A stretch of 51,057 nucleotides of DNA, from assembly GCA_902763365.1 (NCBI GenBank), contig CACWRT010000007.1, positions 1 through 51,057 of the forward strand, given 5' to 3'. Each line of letters begins with the position of its first letter. Position 1 is the first letter of the stretch. Position numbers and translations under genes: made by a program. The stretch comes from an uncultured Ruminococcus sp. (GTDB lineage: Bacteria > Bacillota > Clostridia > Oscillospirales > Acutalibacteraceae). This document shows, piece after piece, positions 29,932 to 34,361 of this stretch. Below the pieces are notes generated by a model, which was not told the origin of the DNA, did no database searches, and was given only the letters and a program-made list of their open reading frames with translations.

Positions 29932-29966
29932 GAGCCTTGCACATTTTATCTGTGCAGGGCTCTTTT
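29932..29966. terminator. Bidirectional terminator glgB2 / DUF4363
   Basis: GAGCCTTGCACA (29932-29943) pairs with TGTGCAGGGCTC (29951-29962) with one G-U, then five T. The right arm ends three bases before the end of the DUF4363 gene. Confidence 0.9.
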
Positions 29967-30355
29967 TACAGTATATTCTGTGGTGTAGGGTATTCCATAT
30001 CTTTCAGATGACGCAGAAGAATGATAGTGCGCTGACCTTCCTCTAAAAATAGATTTGTTTCGTTGTTTTTCAGATCAGTTTCTGCTATATGAAGGCACTG
30101 GTCAATATTATCGGTTTTGTCGTGAGAGTTGAACATTGTAAGAATATTTAACATACTTTCCCAGCTGTTTATAGCTGAGCGTGTATAATATTCAGCATTA
30201 TTCTTATTTCCGTTTTCGATATTGGAAATTGCCGTCTCAAGATCATTTGTGATAGTATCGACCATCCTGATATTTATGATCGTTCCTGAGGCAACAATTA
30301 TCACTGTAACCGCAAGAACAATTAATGCAATATTAGTTCTTTTCAATCTAAACAC
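29966..30355 (-). CDS. DUF4363-like single-pass membrane protein
   Basis: The 129-residue protein has an N-terminal membrane helix (~8-30, NIALIVLAVTVIIVASGTI) and a helical outer part (TNDLETAISNIENGNKNNAEYYTRSAINSWESML, in two blocks) as in the DUF4363 family found in clostridia. It is the second gene of a two-gene minus operon, overlapping the DUF421 gene by 8 bases. DUF4363 and DUF421 genes are often paired near spore genes; here they face a gerA locus. A spore-membrane role is inferred from that context. Confidence 0.75.
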   Translation of the reverse strand: MFRLKRTNIALIVLAVTVIIVASGTIINIRMVDTITNDLETAISNIENGNKNNAEYYTRSAINSWESMLNILTMFNSHDKTDNIDQCLHIAETDLKNNETNLFLEEGQRTIILLRHLKDMEYPTPQNIL

Positions 30356-31031
30356 CTGCTTTTTTTATGATATTGTAATGCTTTGATTTGTCCGCAGTCA
30401 TTATAAAGATATCTTTAAGGCGTACCTTTTCTTTTATCAAAGTCTTTTTCAGCCATGGCTTGGTAAGTTTGCAAAGCTGCATTGATGAATCAGCTATTTC
30501 GCCGTCGCTGACTATTACAGTCTGTATACCATTGTCCCGGGTCTGTACACCTAACTGTCCTGCTTTTACAGTATCGCAGGAGGGTTTTTTTAATATACTC
30601 ATTTTACCGTTGGTTTCGATAATTGCGAATGCAACCTCTTTTATGTCAAAAACATCCTTCTGACGCAGCTCTTCAAAAAGATCTTCCGTACTCATTCTGA
30701 GCTCGGTCATGGCTTTCTGATCTACTTCTCCGTTATTTATGACAATAACGGGATTGCCGCAGATTATTTTTCTGAATTTATTGTTTTTCATCATCAGTAT
30801 AGAAATGAATATCTCGCAGATCAGAAGCACAAATATCGGAATTATACCGCTGAGCATTGGCTGATCGGTGTTCTGCATAGGAATAGACGCAATGTCTGAA
30901 ATAAGGAGCGTAACAACAAGCTCGCTTGTCTGCAGGTCACTTATCTGACGTTTTCCCATCAGCCGCACTGCAAAAATTATTACAACATATAGAAGTATCG
31001 TTCTAAGTACAGTTATTATCAATGTCATCAC
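30348..31031 (-). CDS. DUF421 (YetF-like) membrane protein
   Basis: The 227-residue protein has three N-terminal membrane helices (ILRTILLYVVIIFAVRLMGKRQI, ELVVTLLISDIASIPM, IIPIFVLLICEIFISILMM) and two small cytoplasmic alpha/beta lobes (GNPVIVINNGEVDQKAM, MTELRMSTEDLFEELRQKDVFD) as in B. subtilis YetF/YdfS. In bacilli, a DUF421-containing protein is linked to spore inner-membrane properties and heat resistance. The start is ATG after GGAGTG. It is divergent from gerAA with only 15 bases between the longest possible starts. Confidence 0.88.
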   Translation of the reverse strand: MMTLIITVLRTILLYVVIIFAVRLMGKRQISDLQTSELVVTLLISDIASIPMQNTDQPMLSGIIPIFVLLICEIFISILMMKNNKFRKIICGNPVIVINNGEVDQKAMTELRMSTEDLFEELRQKDVFDIKEVAFAIIETNGKMSILKKPSCDTVKAGQLGVQTRDNGIQTVIVSDGEIADSSMQLCKLTKPWLKKTLIKEKVRLKDIFIMTADKSKHYNIIKKAGV

Positions 31032-31046
31032 TCCGATCGTGTATTC

Positions 31047-32687
31047 ATGAGATTAGTTTTGACTGATTTCTTTGTTTTATTCATAAAATGTATATTTTTG
31101 AACCGAATGCAGAAATTAGTTAATGAAAAGAAACTTCAGAATATGAAAGAAGGGATCAGTTTGTATGATGTTATAAGGCGCATAAACAGAATGTTTGCGC
31201 AACATGAAAAAAACAATGTCGCCGCCCCGAAAACACCGTTATACGAAAGTATCTTGCAAAACGAGAATGAGATAAAATCAAGTTTTTCATCTTCATGTGA
31301 TCTGACGATACATCATGTCACTCTCAAAGGCGCAGATGGTGTTGTTATCTCAATTGATAATATGGTGAGCAAGGATATAATGTCCCAGGCAGTTCTGCAC
31401 CCGCTTTATTCATATACTTTTACGGGGAGCGGAGAAAAATGTATTGACGATATCTGTACGAAAGTGCTTTTTACGGATGATATAACAATAATTGATACCT
31501 TTGAGCAGCTGTATACCCTGATACTTTCAGGCTTTGCCGTGATAGGTATAGAGGGCAGCAGACGCATGGTATCTGTTGGTGTTCAGGGATACAGATCACG
31601 CAGTATTTCCGAACCCGAATCCGATATAATACAGCGCGGTTCCCGCGAAAGCTTTGTAGAGCCAGTAAGAACAAATATGTCAATGCTGAGAAGACGAATG
31701 AAAACGCCCTCACTTACATTTGAGATGATGACTATCGGAAATGTTTCAAAAACAGAAGTATGTCTGTGTTATCTCAGAGATACCGTATCGGATGATGTTT
31801 TGAATGAGGTACGAAAAAGACTGAATAAAGCGGATATAGATACTGTTTTTTCGGCGGGATATCTTGCGCCCTATCTTGAGGACAGCGGAAGCATATCGCC
31901 CTTCAGCAGTGTGGGAGTTACAGAAAGACCCGACAGCCTTTGCGGAAAAATGATGGAAGGTCGTATAGGTATTCTTATTGACGGTGTGCCGTCTGCTTTA
32001 GTTGTCCCGTGTATATTTGCGGAATATTTTCAGACAATGGATGATTATTCAAACAGACCCTATTTTGCATTTTTTACAAGAATGTTGAAATTTGCGGCAT
32101 TTTTTATTGCCATGTTTCTGCCCGGATTTTACACTGCTCTGGGAACATACGACCCTGAGATGTTTCCGACTCTTACTCTTAATAAGATAGCGATTTCCAT
32201 AGGCAGTACTCCTCTTTCACTTACGGCAGAAACTATCATGATACTGCTTGTCTATGAGATAATGAGAGAATCGGGGCTGAGAATGCCTCAGCCCTTGGGT
32301 TATGCTGTAAGTATCGTCGGAGGACTTGTGATAGGGGATACTGCCATAAATGCAGGACTTATCGGCGCACCTACGCTTATGGTAGTAGCTATCTCGGCAA
32401 TATGCTCATATATAATACCTGATCTTTATGCTCCTACTGCTGTTCTGAGAATAGTTTTTTCAGTCATAGGCGGATTGTTCGGAATATGGGGAATGGCTGC
32501 TGCAATGTGTATTCTGTTTGTCAATCTATGCAGTAAAAAAAGCTTCGGTATTCCTTATATGTCGCCTGTTACACCATTAGGTGCAACGGTACTCAGGGAT
32601 GTTATTTTCCGTGCCGGATGGAAAAGACTTTCTTACAAAAATGCAAGGGTACAGAATATGCCCGGAGCGCACACGGAGGTGATGTAA
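31047..32687 (+). CDS. gerAA: Spore germination receptor subunit A
   Basis: The protein (546 residues from the first ATG) is a GerA-family germinant receptor subunit of the spore inner membrane. It has a soluble N-terminal domain of about 260 residues, the family signature MEGRIGILIDGVPSALVVPCIFAEYFQTMDDY (read in two blocks), then about five membrane helices to FGIPYMSPVTPLG. The start is uncertain: ATG 31047 has no ribosome site, while TTG 31161 has GAAGGG 6 bases upstream, gives 508 residues, and leaves room for divergent promoters. The next gene follows the stop directly. Confidence 0.93.
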   Translation: MRLVLTDFFVLFIKCIFLNRMQKLVNEKKLQNMKEGISLYDVIRRINRMFAQHEKNNVAAPKTPLYESILQNENEIKSSFSSSCDLTIHHVTLKGADGVVISIDNMVSKDIMSQAVLHPLYSYTFTGSGEKCIDDICTKVLFTDDITIIDTFEQLYTLILSGFAVIGIEGSRRMVSVGVQGYRSRSISEPESDIIQRGSRESFVEPVRTNMSMLRRRMKTPSLTFEMMTIGNVSKTEVCLCYLRDTVSDDVLNEVRKRLNKADIDTVFSAGYLAPYLEDSGSISPFSSVGVTERPDSLCGKMMEGRIGILIDGVPSALVVPCIFAEYFQTMDDYSNRPYFAFFTRMLKFAAFFIAMFLPGFYTALGTYDPEMFPTLTLNKIAISIGSTPLSLTAETIMILLVYEIMRESGLRMPQPLGYAVSIVGGLVIGDTAINAGLIGAPTLMVVAISAICSYIIPDLYAPTAVLRIVFSVIGGLFGIWGMAAAMCILFVNLCSKKSFGIPYMSPVTPLGATVLRDVIFRAGWKRLSYKNARVQNMPGAHTEVM

Positions 32688-34361
32688 ATGCAGCAGGTCG
32701 ATAAGGAAAGGATAGCCTCCTATCAGCTTGTTATAATGATGTTTGTCATAAGGATTTGTGCTGTTATAATGTACCCATACAGCTTTGGTGAGGATATGTC
32801 TGTTTGGGGACTTATGATACCGCTGCTTATGGAGATAGTCTGGAATTTTATTGTTATCATACCCATAATCGGATGTACCTCTCTTGAAAAGCATGAAATA
32901 CTTCCGCCTTTGTTTTCGGGGAAGGGGGAAAGAATTTTGCTTGGAGCTGTATTTTTTTATCGAAGCATTTCCGATCTTTACAGGTTCAACGGATTCGGAA
33001 CGGAATATGCGGGACAGGATCTCAGCAGAGTTATGATAACTATACTTGTTTTTATTGCAGCAGTATATGCCGCAGTAAAAGGAATAGAGGGAGTTGTAAG
33101 ATTTTCTTTTCTTGTTTTTATCTGGATAATACTGGGAAGTATAGTTGTGATGTCGGGATTGATTCCTTCATTTGACATTAATATGATAAAGAATGCGGGA
33201 TATAACCCGACAAGAGACAATATGAAGGGGCTGCTCATGCTTATATCTGAAAACACAGAACTGAGTCTTCTTTTTTGCTTTCTGAGCAGAACAAAGGGGA
33301 GAAGGACAAGGCCCGTAATACTGTGGAATATCTTCAGCGGAATTTTTCTTGTATTTATGCTGATACTTGTAAGCGGAACTATGGGAGAATATCTTATTGG
33401 GATGAATTATCCTTTTTATCATATTACAGACGGAGCAGGTACTCTGCAAAGGCTTCATCCGGTGTTTATAGGAATTGTTATATCTGCTTTTGTTTGTATG
33501 CTTGGGGCGGATCTGCTGATCCTGAAAGAGGTTTTATCATTTACTATTGAAAAGGAAAAAAACGTAAACAGATCATTTCTTGCGGTATCAGGAACAGCTG
33601 CCGCAGCTGCAATCATCCTGAGTAATAATAAAACAACTGCCGATATGATATTTGACGGTAAAATAATGCTTTTAGCCTCCGTATCCGTAATCGTTATCCT
33701 GCCGTTGGTCAGGATCATGTCTATACTTCTGAAAGAAAAAAGAGTATTAATAAGGACAGTGTCCTTATTTCTTGCTATGACAGTAATGGTAATGCTTTTC
33801 ACAGGATGCAGCAGCACGCCTTTGGATCAGAGAATAATAATACAGGGAATAGGAGTGGACAAAACTGACGGCAGAACTTCTCTTACACTTCTGACGCTTG
33901 ATACGGATGACAACGAAAAATATAACAGTATAAAGATAATAAAGGGGTACGGAAACAGCGTATCTTCCGCAATAGATAATGTAGAAATATCAACAGGAAA
34001 AAAGTGTCTTTTCAGTCAGTGTCTTTTTGTGATCTTGAACAGGTATTCTTTAAATGATACGGGAGCGTCTTTGGACTATTTCAGCGATAACAAGGAAGTC
34101 ATGAAAACGATGAATATTATGGCTTGCGGCAGCAACAGCGGCATGATTCTTACGAAGGCTGTGATGGAAATGGATTATCACAGTGAAGATATAAACATGA
34201 TTTCCGACAGCAATGCTGTAGATCAGAATGATTTCCATTGTACCCTTTTTGATTATATAGTATATGAAAAAAACCGTAATTCCGAATTGAAAATACCCGT
34301 AATATCTATAGATCCCGATACAGAACGTCTTTGCGTGTCCGGCGTATTCCCTGTAGAATGA
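32688..34361 (+). CDS. Fused spore germination subunits B and C (GerAB + N-terminal GerAC)
   Basis: Residues 1-352 are a GerAB-type permease with about ten membrane helices, ending VRIMSILLKEKR as GerAB proteins do. Residues ~353-374 then look like a complete lipoprotein signal, with lipobox LFTGC and Cys374, followed by a GerAC N-terminal domain (QRIIIQGIGVDKTDGRTSL, GKKCLFSQCLFVIL, KIPVISIDPDTERLCVSG). The frame is continuous and stops at residue 557, just where the GerAC C-terminal domain would start, so ~170 residues usual for GerAC are missing. AGGTGATGTAA precedes the ATG. If the internal signal is cut, the fusion would release a lipoprotein; otherwise the lipobox helix is an extra membrane segment. 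Confidence 0.88.
   Translation: MQQVDKERIASYQLVIMMFVIRICAVIMYPYSFGEDMSVWGLMIPLLMEIVWNFIVIIPIIGCTSLEKHEILPPLFSGKGERILLGAVFFYRSISDLYRFNGFGTEYAGQDLSRVMITILVFIAAVYAAVKGIEGVVRFSFLVFIWIILGSIVVMSGLIPSFDINMIKNAGYNPTRDNMKGLLMLISENTELSLLFCFLSRTKGRRTRPVILWNIFSGIFLVFMLILVSGTMGEYLIGMNYPFYHITDGAGTLQRLHPVFIGIVISAFVCMLGADLLILKEVLSFTIEKEKNVNRSFLAVSGTAAAAAIILSNNKTTADMIFDGKIMLLASVSVIVILPLVRIMSILLKEKRVLIRTVSLFLAMTVMVMLFTGCSSTPLDQRIIIQGIGVDKTDGRTSLTLLTLDTDDNEKYNSIKIIKGYGNSVSSAIDNVEISTGKKCLFSQCLFVILNRYSLNDTGASLDYFSDNKEVMKTMNIMACGSNSGMILTKAVMEMDYHSEDINMISDSNAVDQNDFHCTLFDYIVYEKNRNSELKIPVISIDPDTERLCVSGVFPVE

Follow-up and report, generated by a model that had tools for sequence, protein, structure and literature searches.

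Published accounts describe the A, B and C proteins of germinant receptors as separate subunits, of which C contacts both A and B and is fixed by a lipid anchor to the outer side of the spore inner membrane (PMC13170314, PMC11841064). On a contig of an uncultured Ruminococcus sp. (CACWRT010000007.1; the window, that is, the whole stretch of DNA analysed, spans 51,057 nucleotides), the B and C subunits of such a receptor share one open reading frame, which raises the question of whether the fusion is genuine and, if so, in what form its C subunit would be made. The features of the locus are the following.

29966..30355, minus strand: DUF4363 gene (PF14276, E 1.4e-16)
30348..31031, minus strand: DUF421 (YetF-like) gene (PF04239, E 2.9e-39)
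31047..32687, plus strand: gerA, receptor A subunit, 546 aa as listed (PF03323, E 7.9e-150), abutting gerBC with no gap
32688..34361, plus strand: gerBC, fused GerAB-GerAC, 557 aa, a single open frame
32688..33737, plus strand: GerAB-type permease part of gerBC, residues ~1-350 (PF03845; APC/LeuT-fold Foldseek matches)
33738..33806, plus strand: eleventh helix and putative internal lipoprotein signal, residues 351-373 (model helix 351-371; h- and n-region statistics)
33807..33809, plus strand: codon of the lipobox Cys374, a residue kept in related fusions
33813..34310, plus strand: GerAC N-terminal domain, residues 376-541 (PF25198; genus profile against 3n54)

The gerBC frame and its parts

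The gerBC frame opens with an ATG at 32688, the base directly after the gerA stop, and runs through 557 codons with zero internal stops to a TGA ending at 34361. Its permease half reaches the Pfam family Spore_permease (PF03845) with 27.0 bits against a cut-off of 23.4, the best stretch covering only residues 89-234, and obtains only 13.9 bits with the TIGR00912 permease model, so far under the cut-off of 139.55 that the B half must be regarded as divergent. The C half matches Spore_GerAC_N (PF25198, E 7e-13) over residues 376-541 and model positions 2-176 of 176; the TIGR02887 model (Ger(x)C) is matched only at positions 4-204 of 371, with 56.7 bits, under its cut-off of 163.25. The Pfam search of the protein returned no GerAC C-terminal domain (PF05504).

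The AlphaFold2 model of gerBC (pLDDT 83.9, pTM 0.63) predicts permease helices, an additional helix at residues 351-371, Cys374 and an alpha/beta domain ending at residue 557. The 50 of 566 Foldseek matches listed for this model, which represents the short form of the protein defined below, are APC/LeuT-fold transporters such as CodB, AdiC and ApcT. Furthermore, the GerBC crystal structure 3n54 is matched at the sequence level by a genus profile of 30 rows (E 1.9e-8), and it was also the first Foldseek match for the predicted structure of a full-length relative, in which residues 346-377 have a pLDDT below 50. The open reading frame, the Pfam families and the AlphaFold2 model all agree with the original prediction, made from the nucleotide sequence, that a GerAB-type permease and a GerAC N-terminal domain lie in one frame.

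Fusion of gerB and gerC across the genus

Sixty-four genomes of the genus, the host genome included, were searched, and 61 of them match gerBC; the completeness of the other three is 62-83%. In 59 of the 61 matched genomes gerB and gerC lie in one frame, comprising 58 complete fusions and one (L059) that runs into a contig end, and the relatives, which align with almost all of gerBC at 26-49% identity, keep the frame. The complete set of 58 leaves out L059, the split locus L027 and L061, a contig-end locus from a genome (G042) in which pieces of gerBC lie on two contigs. Those relatives that have names are uncultured bacteria, often designated Ruminococcus sp., and many come from rumen and gut samples. 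This comparison of sequences indicates that the B-C fusion is a variant of the GerA-type receptor that is common to the genus and looks functional.

One locus that falls within the fused genus clade (L027, in genome G057) has a TAA between gerB and gerC, after which comes a TTG start. The fusion is therefore not indispensable, and the position of this locus on a long branch within that clade suggests that fission may also occur. Two further genomes show additional matches. In G061, gerBC occurs with equal score on two contigs (C18 and C46), as a duplicated stretch or an assembly repeat, and the fetched genus loci comprise neither the second of these copies nor one of the G042 pieces. In G053, a second GerAC-like frame of 429 aa (G053:C248:1686-2150) lies on a contig other than that of gerBC and may represent a second receptor or contamination.

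gerA and its neighbours

The gerA gene is the sole PF03323 match in the host genome. Its listed ATG at 31047 has no evident ribosome site, with later in-frame ATGs at 31107, 31143 and 31191 as alternatives, and the true start may lie further in, at 31107 or 31143. Among 54 named related loci (L093-L146), gerA is found upstream in 53, and the DUF421 and DUF4363 genes lie near it in 49 and 40, respectively, in divergent orientation except in L141; glgB is also nearby in 22 of these loci, several of which end before it. According to one study, YetF (DUF421) proteins reside in the spore membrane, and spores that lack them germinate more slowly (PMC10126465); the conserved DUF421 neighbour fits this description. 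Across the same loci gerA is 55-83% alike in its best segment, compared with only 25-48% for its gerBC partner, which implies a much higher rate of evolution in gerBC than in gerA.

Genes of the SpoVAC/SpoVAEb family are present in 64 of 64 genus genomes, the host genome holding two. A scan for sigma-70 promoters performed at chance level, with 12 found and 12.6 expected.

Conservation of an internal lipobox

The lipobox LFTGC, with Cys374, lies at the end of the additional helix of gerBC, where the original prediction had placed it, and the comparison bears it out: all 58 complete genus fusions have the Cys, and so do all 13 fusions scored outside the genus. In the genus fusions, position -1 to the Cys is occupied by G (54), S (3) or A (1), and the Cys itself lies anywhere between positions 352 and 393. 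The uncharged h-region that precedes it has a median length of 17 residues (13-24), close to the median of 16 in 39 separate GerAC signals with a Cys, and is itself preceded by a net positive charge in all 58 proteins. Unlike N-terminal lipoprotein signals, the gerBC signal sits inside the chain, after some 350 residues. Three of the 42 separate or abutting GerAC genes (L206, L160 and L172) have no lipobox Cys, from which it follows that lipidation is not always needed.

Among four regions compared, the helix before the Cys varies most, with a mean pairwise identity of 0.22 in full-length and 0.17 in short forms, as a generic signal would; the permease averages 0.33 and 0.29, and conservation is highest in the GerAC N domain, at 0.49 and 0.41. 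Because the Cys is kept and the helix drifts, selection appears to act on a working lipoprotein signal and not on a particular membrane anchor.

Predicted release of the C subunit

Taken together, these data incline us towards reading gerBC as a polyprotein, from which Lgt and signal peptidase II would produce one B subunit of 11 helices and one lipidated mini-C. The ten permease helices would leave the end of the chain on the core side, and the eleventh helix would serve as an internal lipoprotein signal by which the C part crosses the spore inner membrane. With lipid attached at Cys374 by Lgt and a cut before this residue by signal peptidase II, B, with its 11 helices, and C, anchored by its lipid, would arise in an exact 1:1 ratio, and both products would assemble with GerA into the receptor. 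In the host species and in several related lineages, the C subunit would be a mini-form without the C-terminal domain, which is seemingly dispensable here. Lsp normally acts after Lgt, and the host genome has one lsp and one lgt match. We infer the topology from the single AlphaFold2 model (pTM 0.63) and from knowledge of the family, and likewise infer lipidation, the cut, assembly and the function of the products. Whether bacteria regularly produce a lipoprotein subunit as the last part of a polytopic polyprotein and free it at an internal signal with Lgt and signal peptidase II, so that B:C is 1:1 in a receptor that tolerates the loss of the C-terminal domain of C, is a close call that falls just short of even.

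The main rival of the polyprotein is a C domain permanently tethered to the B subunit through an uncut eleventh helix, perhaps lipidated at Cys374 by Lgt, in which case the fusion would lock B and C together mechanically. The fusion as such suits a tether, and hydrophobic stretches of 17 residues (up to 24) are able to span a membrane. However, the Cys and the G, S or A at position -1 are kept even though the helix drifts more than the three other regions, and a lipobox would be superfluous for a structural link unless the lipid were also wanted; we consider a tether rather unlikely, though by no means negligible. A review voices a doubt on cleavage that extends to C subunits in general, and if this doubt holds, natural C subunits would be lipidated but uncut. 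The original prediction had left the choice between cut and tether open; the Cys, the n-region, the h-region and the unconserved helix favour a working lipobox, and the cleavage that would follow from it stays at the level of a proposal.

Two products could also arise from an internal translation start, which would give a normal GerAC lipoprotein beside the full-length B-C protein. Codons suitable for such a start and giving a charged n-region occur in 46 of the 58 fusions, gerBC itself having an ATG at codon 344, 30 residues ahead of Cys374. Against this, a Shine-Dalgarno start is present at the junction in 6 of 58 fusions within the genus and 0 of 13 outside it, compared with 35 of 42 separate gerC genes and 66 of 348 background permease windows, these windows being scored more loosely, without demanding an n-region; a looser scan that also counted GGTG gave 18 of 58 genus fusions. 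These counts led us to reject internal initiation as the main route, and we regard it as improbable altogether. Since the junction is not above background in this respect, any C subunit that exists in free form would have to be released by cleavage, as in the polyprotein reading.

Repeated absence of the GerAC C-terminal domain

The distance from the Cys to the end of the protein divides the 58 complete genus fusions into 22 of short form (178-209 residues) and 36 of full length (290-340 residues), with none between. A profile made from 18 full-length rows to represent the part that the short forms lack matches all 36 long proteins and none of the 22 short ones. In the DNA that follows the short genes (up to 1.5 kb, or the available flank), the same profile gave no match at E < 0.001, the best being E 0.77, and a frameshift remnant of the C domain was rejected on this search. 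A whole-genome search of the 22 short-form genomes (76-100% complete) with a 22-row genus profile likewise detected the C domain elsewhere in 0 of 22, and on these grounds its relocation within the genome was also rejected. This 22-row profile matches 5 of 5 controls, of which three had given rows to it and two independent ones match at E 2e-13 and 5e-4; given that the latter control (G032) is matched only at this level, a divergent copy could be missed. PF05504 detected no GerAC C-terminal domain in the host genome, with a sensitivity so low that it matches 24 of 64 genus genomes, once at another locus (G053), even though 36 full-length fusions exist. The absence of this domain from the protein, as originally predicted, was thereby upheld by Pfam, and neither PF05504 nor the genus profile detects it in the genome.

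In a careful tree of 66 rows, the short form requires 8 changes (8-11 over bootstrap trees), at least five of them forced by well-supported branches, although such changes cannot tell loss from gain. A single short-form clade is rejected on a quick tree (p-AU 3.0e-10; 22 versus 37 rows), and a single origin of the short form was discarded on the basis of this test. Fusion and truncation, which the original prediction had treated as one event, are thus two: the fusion is genus-wide, and the short form is scattered within the genus through several changes. Among 30 close full-length pairs (permease pN < 0.25; the pairs overlap), mean pN is 0.261 in the C-terminal domain versus 0.129 in the N domain, and the former is the faster in 30 of 30. 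The dN/dS ratio was calculated for ten chosen pairs, eight short and two full; in the eight short-form pairs, which cover 13 of the 22 short genes, it is at most 0.22, with saturated dS in several of them. On the simplest reading of these sequence comparisons, a protein that still works would have shed a weakly constrained domain on several occasions, and a regain of the C-terminal domain by recombination is possible.

A decaying receptor, in which the fusion and the loss of the C-terminal domain would be steps of pseudogenization, would agree with the repeated loss of this domain and with its outpacing of the N domain in all 30 pairs, which are not independent. We nevertheless judge it very improbable in view of the low dN/dS of the short-form pairs (several with saturated dS), of the N domain, which remains the most conserved part of the short forms, and of the lack of C-domain matches downstream of the short genes. 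The description of the locus as a reduced or rebuilt receptor thus fits, provided that the receptor is taken to be still under selection, as the eight short-form pairs indicate. Finally, the host genome is a draft of 211 contigs (99.36% complete) and many relatives are metagenome assemblies, but an assembly or sequencing artefact is hardly credible and assembly error is refuted by the relatives, in which this structure recurs at the identities given above; the search for the same fusion in related genomes, a check proposed with the original prediction, hence leaves no room for a local error.

Fusion outside the genus

The fusion profile matches 177 of 300 genomes of the wider family. An order-wide search gave matches in 91 of 295 genomes, and the loci fetched were classified as fused or separate. 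Outside the genus, 55 loci were scored as fused (13, in six genera by group code), abutting in frame (6) or separate (36), numbers that do not represent frequencies, as the loci were drawn from the best matches; the count excludes loci lacking either half, frames under 200 aa and two duplicates. In a quick tree of 113 rows, at least six changes separate fused from non-fused states, the genus forming one clade, and in genus g85 two fused loci (L200 and L201) are closely related to a separate one (L210). On this phylogenetic evidence, the fusion appears to have had several origins or reversals.

In six loci (L203, L204, L206, L208, L220 and L221), gerB and gerC share one frame with only 3-12 bases between them, stop included, and these abutting pairs are possible intermediates of fusion or splitting. 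Another locus (L219, in G128) holds a fused-looking frame of 767 residues with a lipobox PGC recognized by eye, its GerAC part being too divergent for the genus profile. A further candidate fusion (L239) was rejected, the upstream half not being a permease in that frame.

Comparison with known systems

Literature searches, mostly confined to papers outside subscription, returned neither an earlier report of a B-C fusion nor precedents, and passages of two comparative papers (PMC5083711, PMC3533761) mention no B-C fusion. A 2021 study reports that A and C rely on B for stability and describes GerAC as a lipoprotein of unknown function (PMC8617281), and it is still debated whether the receptor is a pentamer or a hexamer of ABC trimers (PMC11841064). 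A natural B-C fusion throughout a genus provides independent evidence that B and C stand side by side at 1:1, and the repeated loss of the C-terminal domain suggests that the N domain, the best conserved, is the essential part of C and that the C-terminal domain is not. Furthermore, gerBC offers a clean test case for the cutting of an internal signal of a polytopic protein by signal peptidase II.

With GerA-type receptors (B. subtilis GerA, GerB and GerK; B. cereus GerI) the locus shares the order A-B-C, an APC-type permease as B, a lipobox ahead of C, a GerAC N domain whose profile is related to GerBC (3n54) and an adjoining GerA gene. In those receptors A, B and C are separate genes, whereas gerBC has a single frame for B and C, a signal in its interior, in this species a C without its C-terminal domain, and scores that do not reach the NCBIfam cut-offs for B and C. 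Loci from other genera of the same family, such as L210, L212 and L203, have gerB followed by gerC, as in gerBC, with gerC overlapping the end of gerB or following in the same frame after the stop, but they differ from gerBC in having a stop codon, a gerC start of its own and a long GerAC.

Beyond germination, the Bradyrhizobium FbcH cytochrome b/c1 polyprotein also joins a polytopic protein through an internal signal to an exported domain and is cut into two subunits, although by signal peptidase I, with no lipid and in a respiratory enzyme. In OpuABC-like transporters, a solute-binding domain is fused to the C-terminal end of an ABC permease, which is, as in gerBC, the fusion of an extracellular partner to a membrane protein, and there the fused domain stays tethered.
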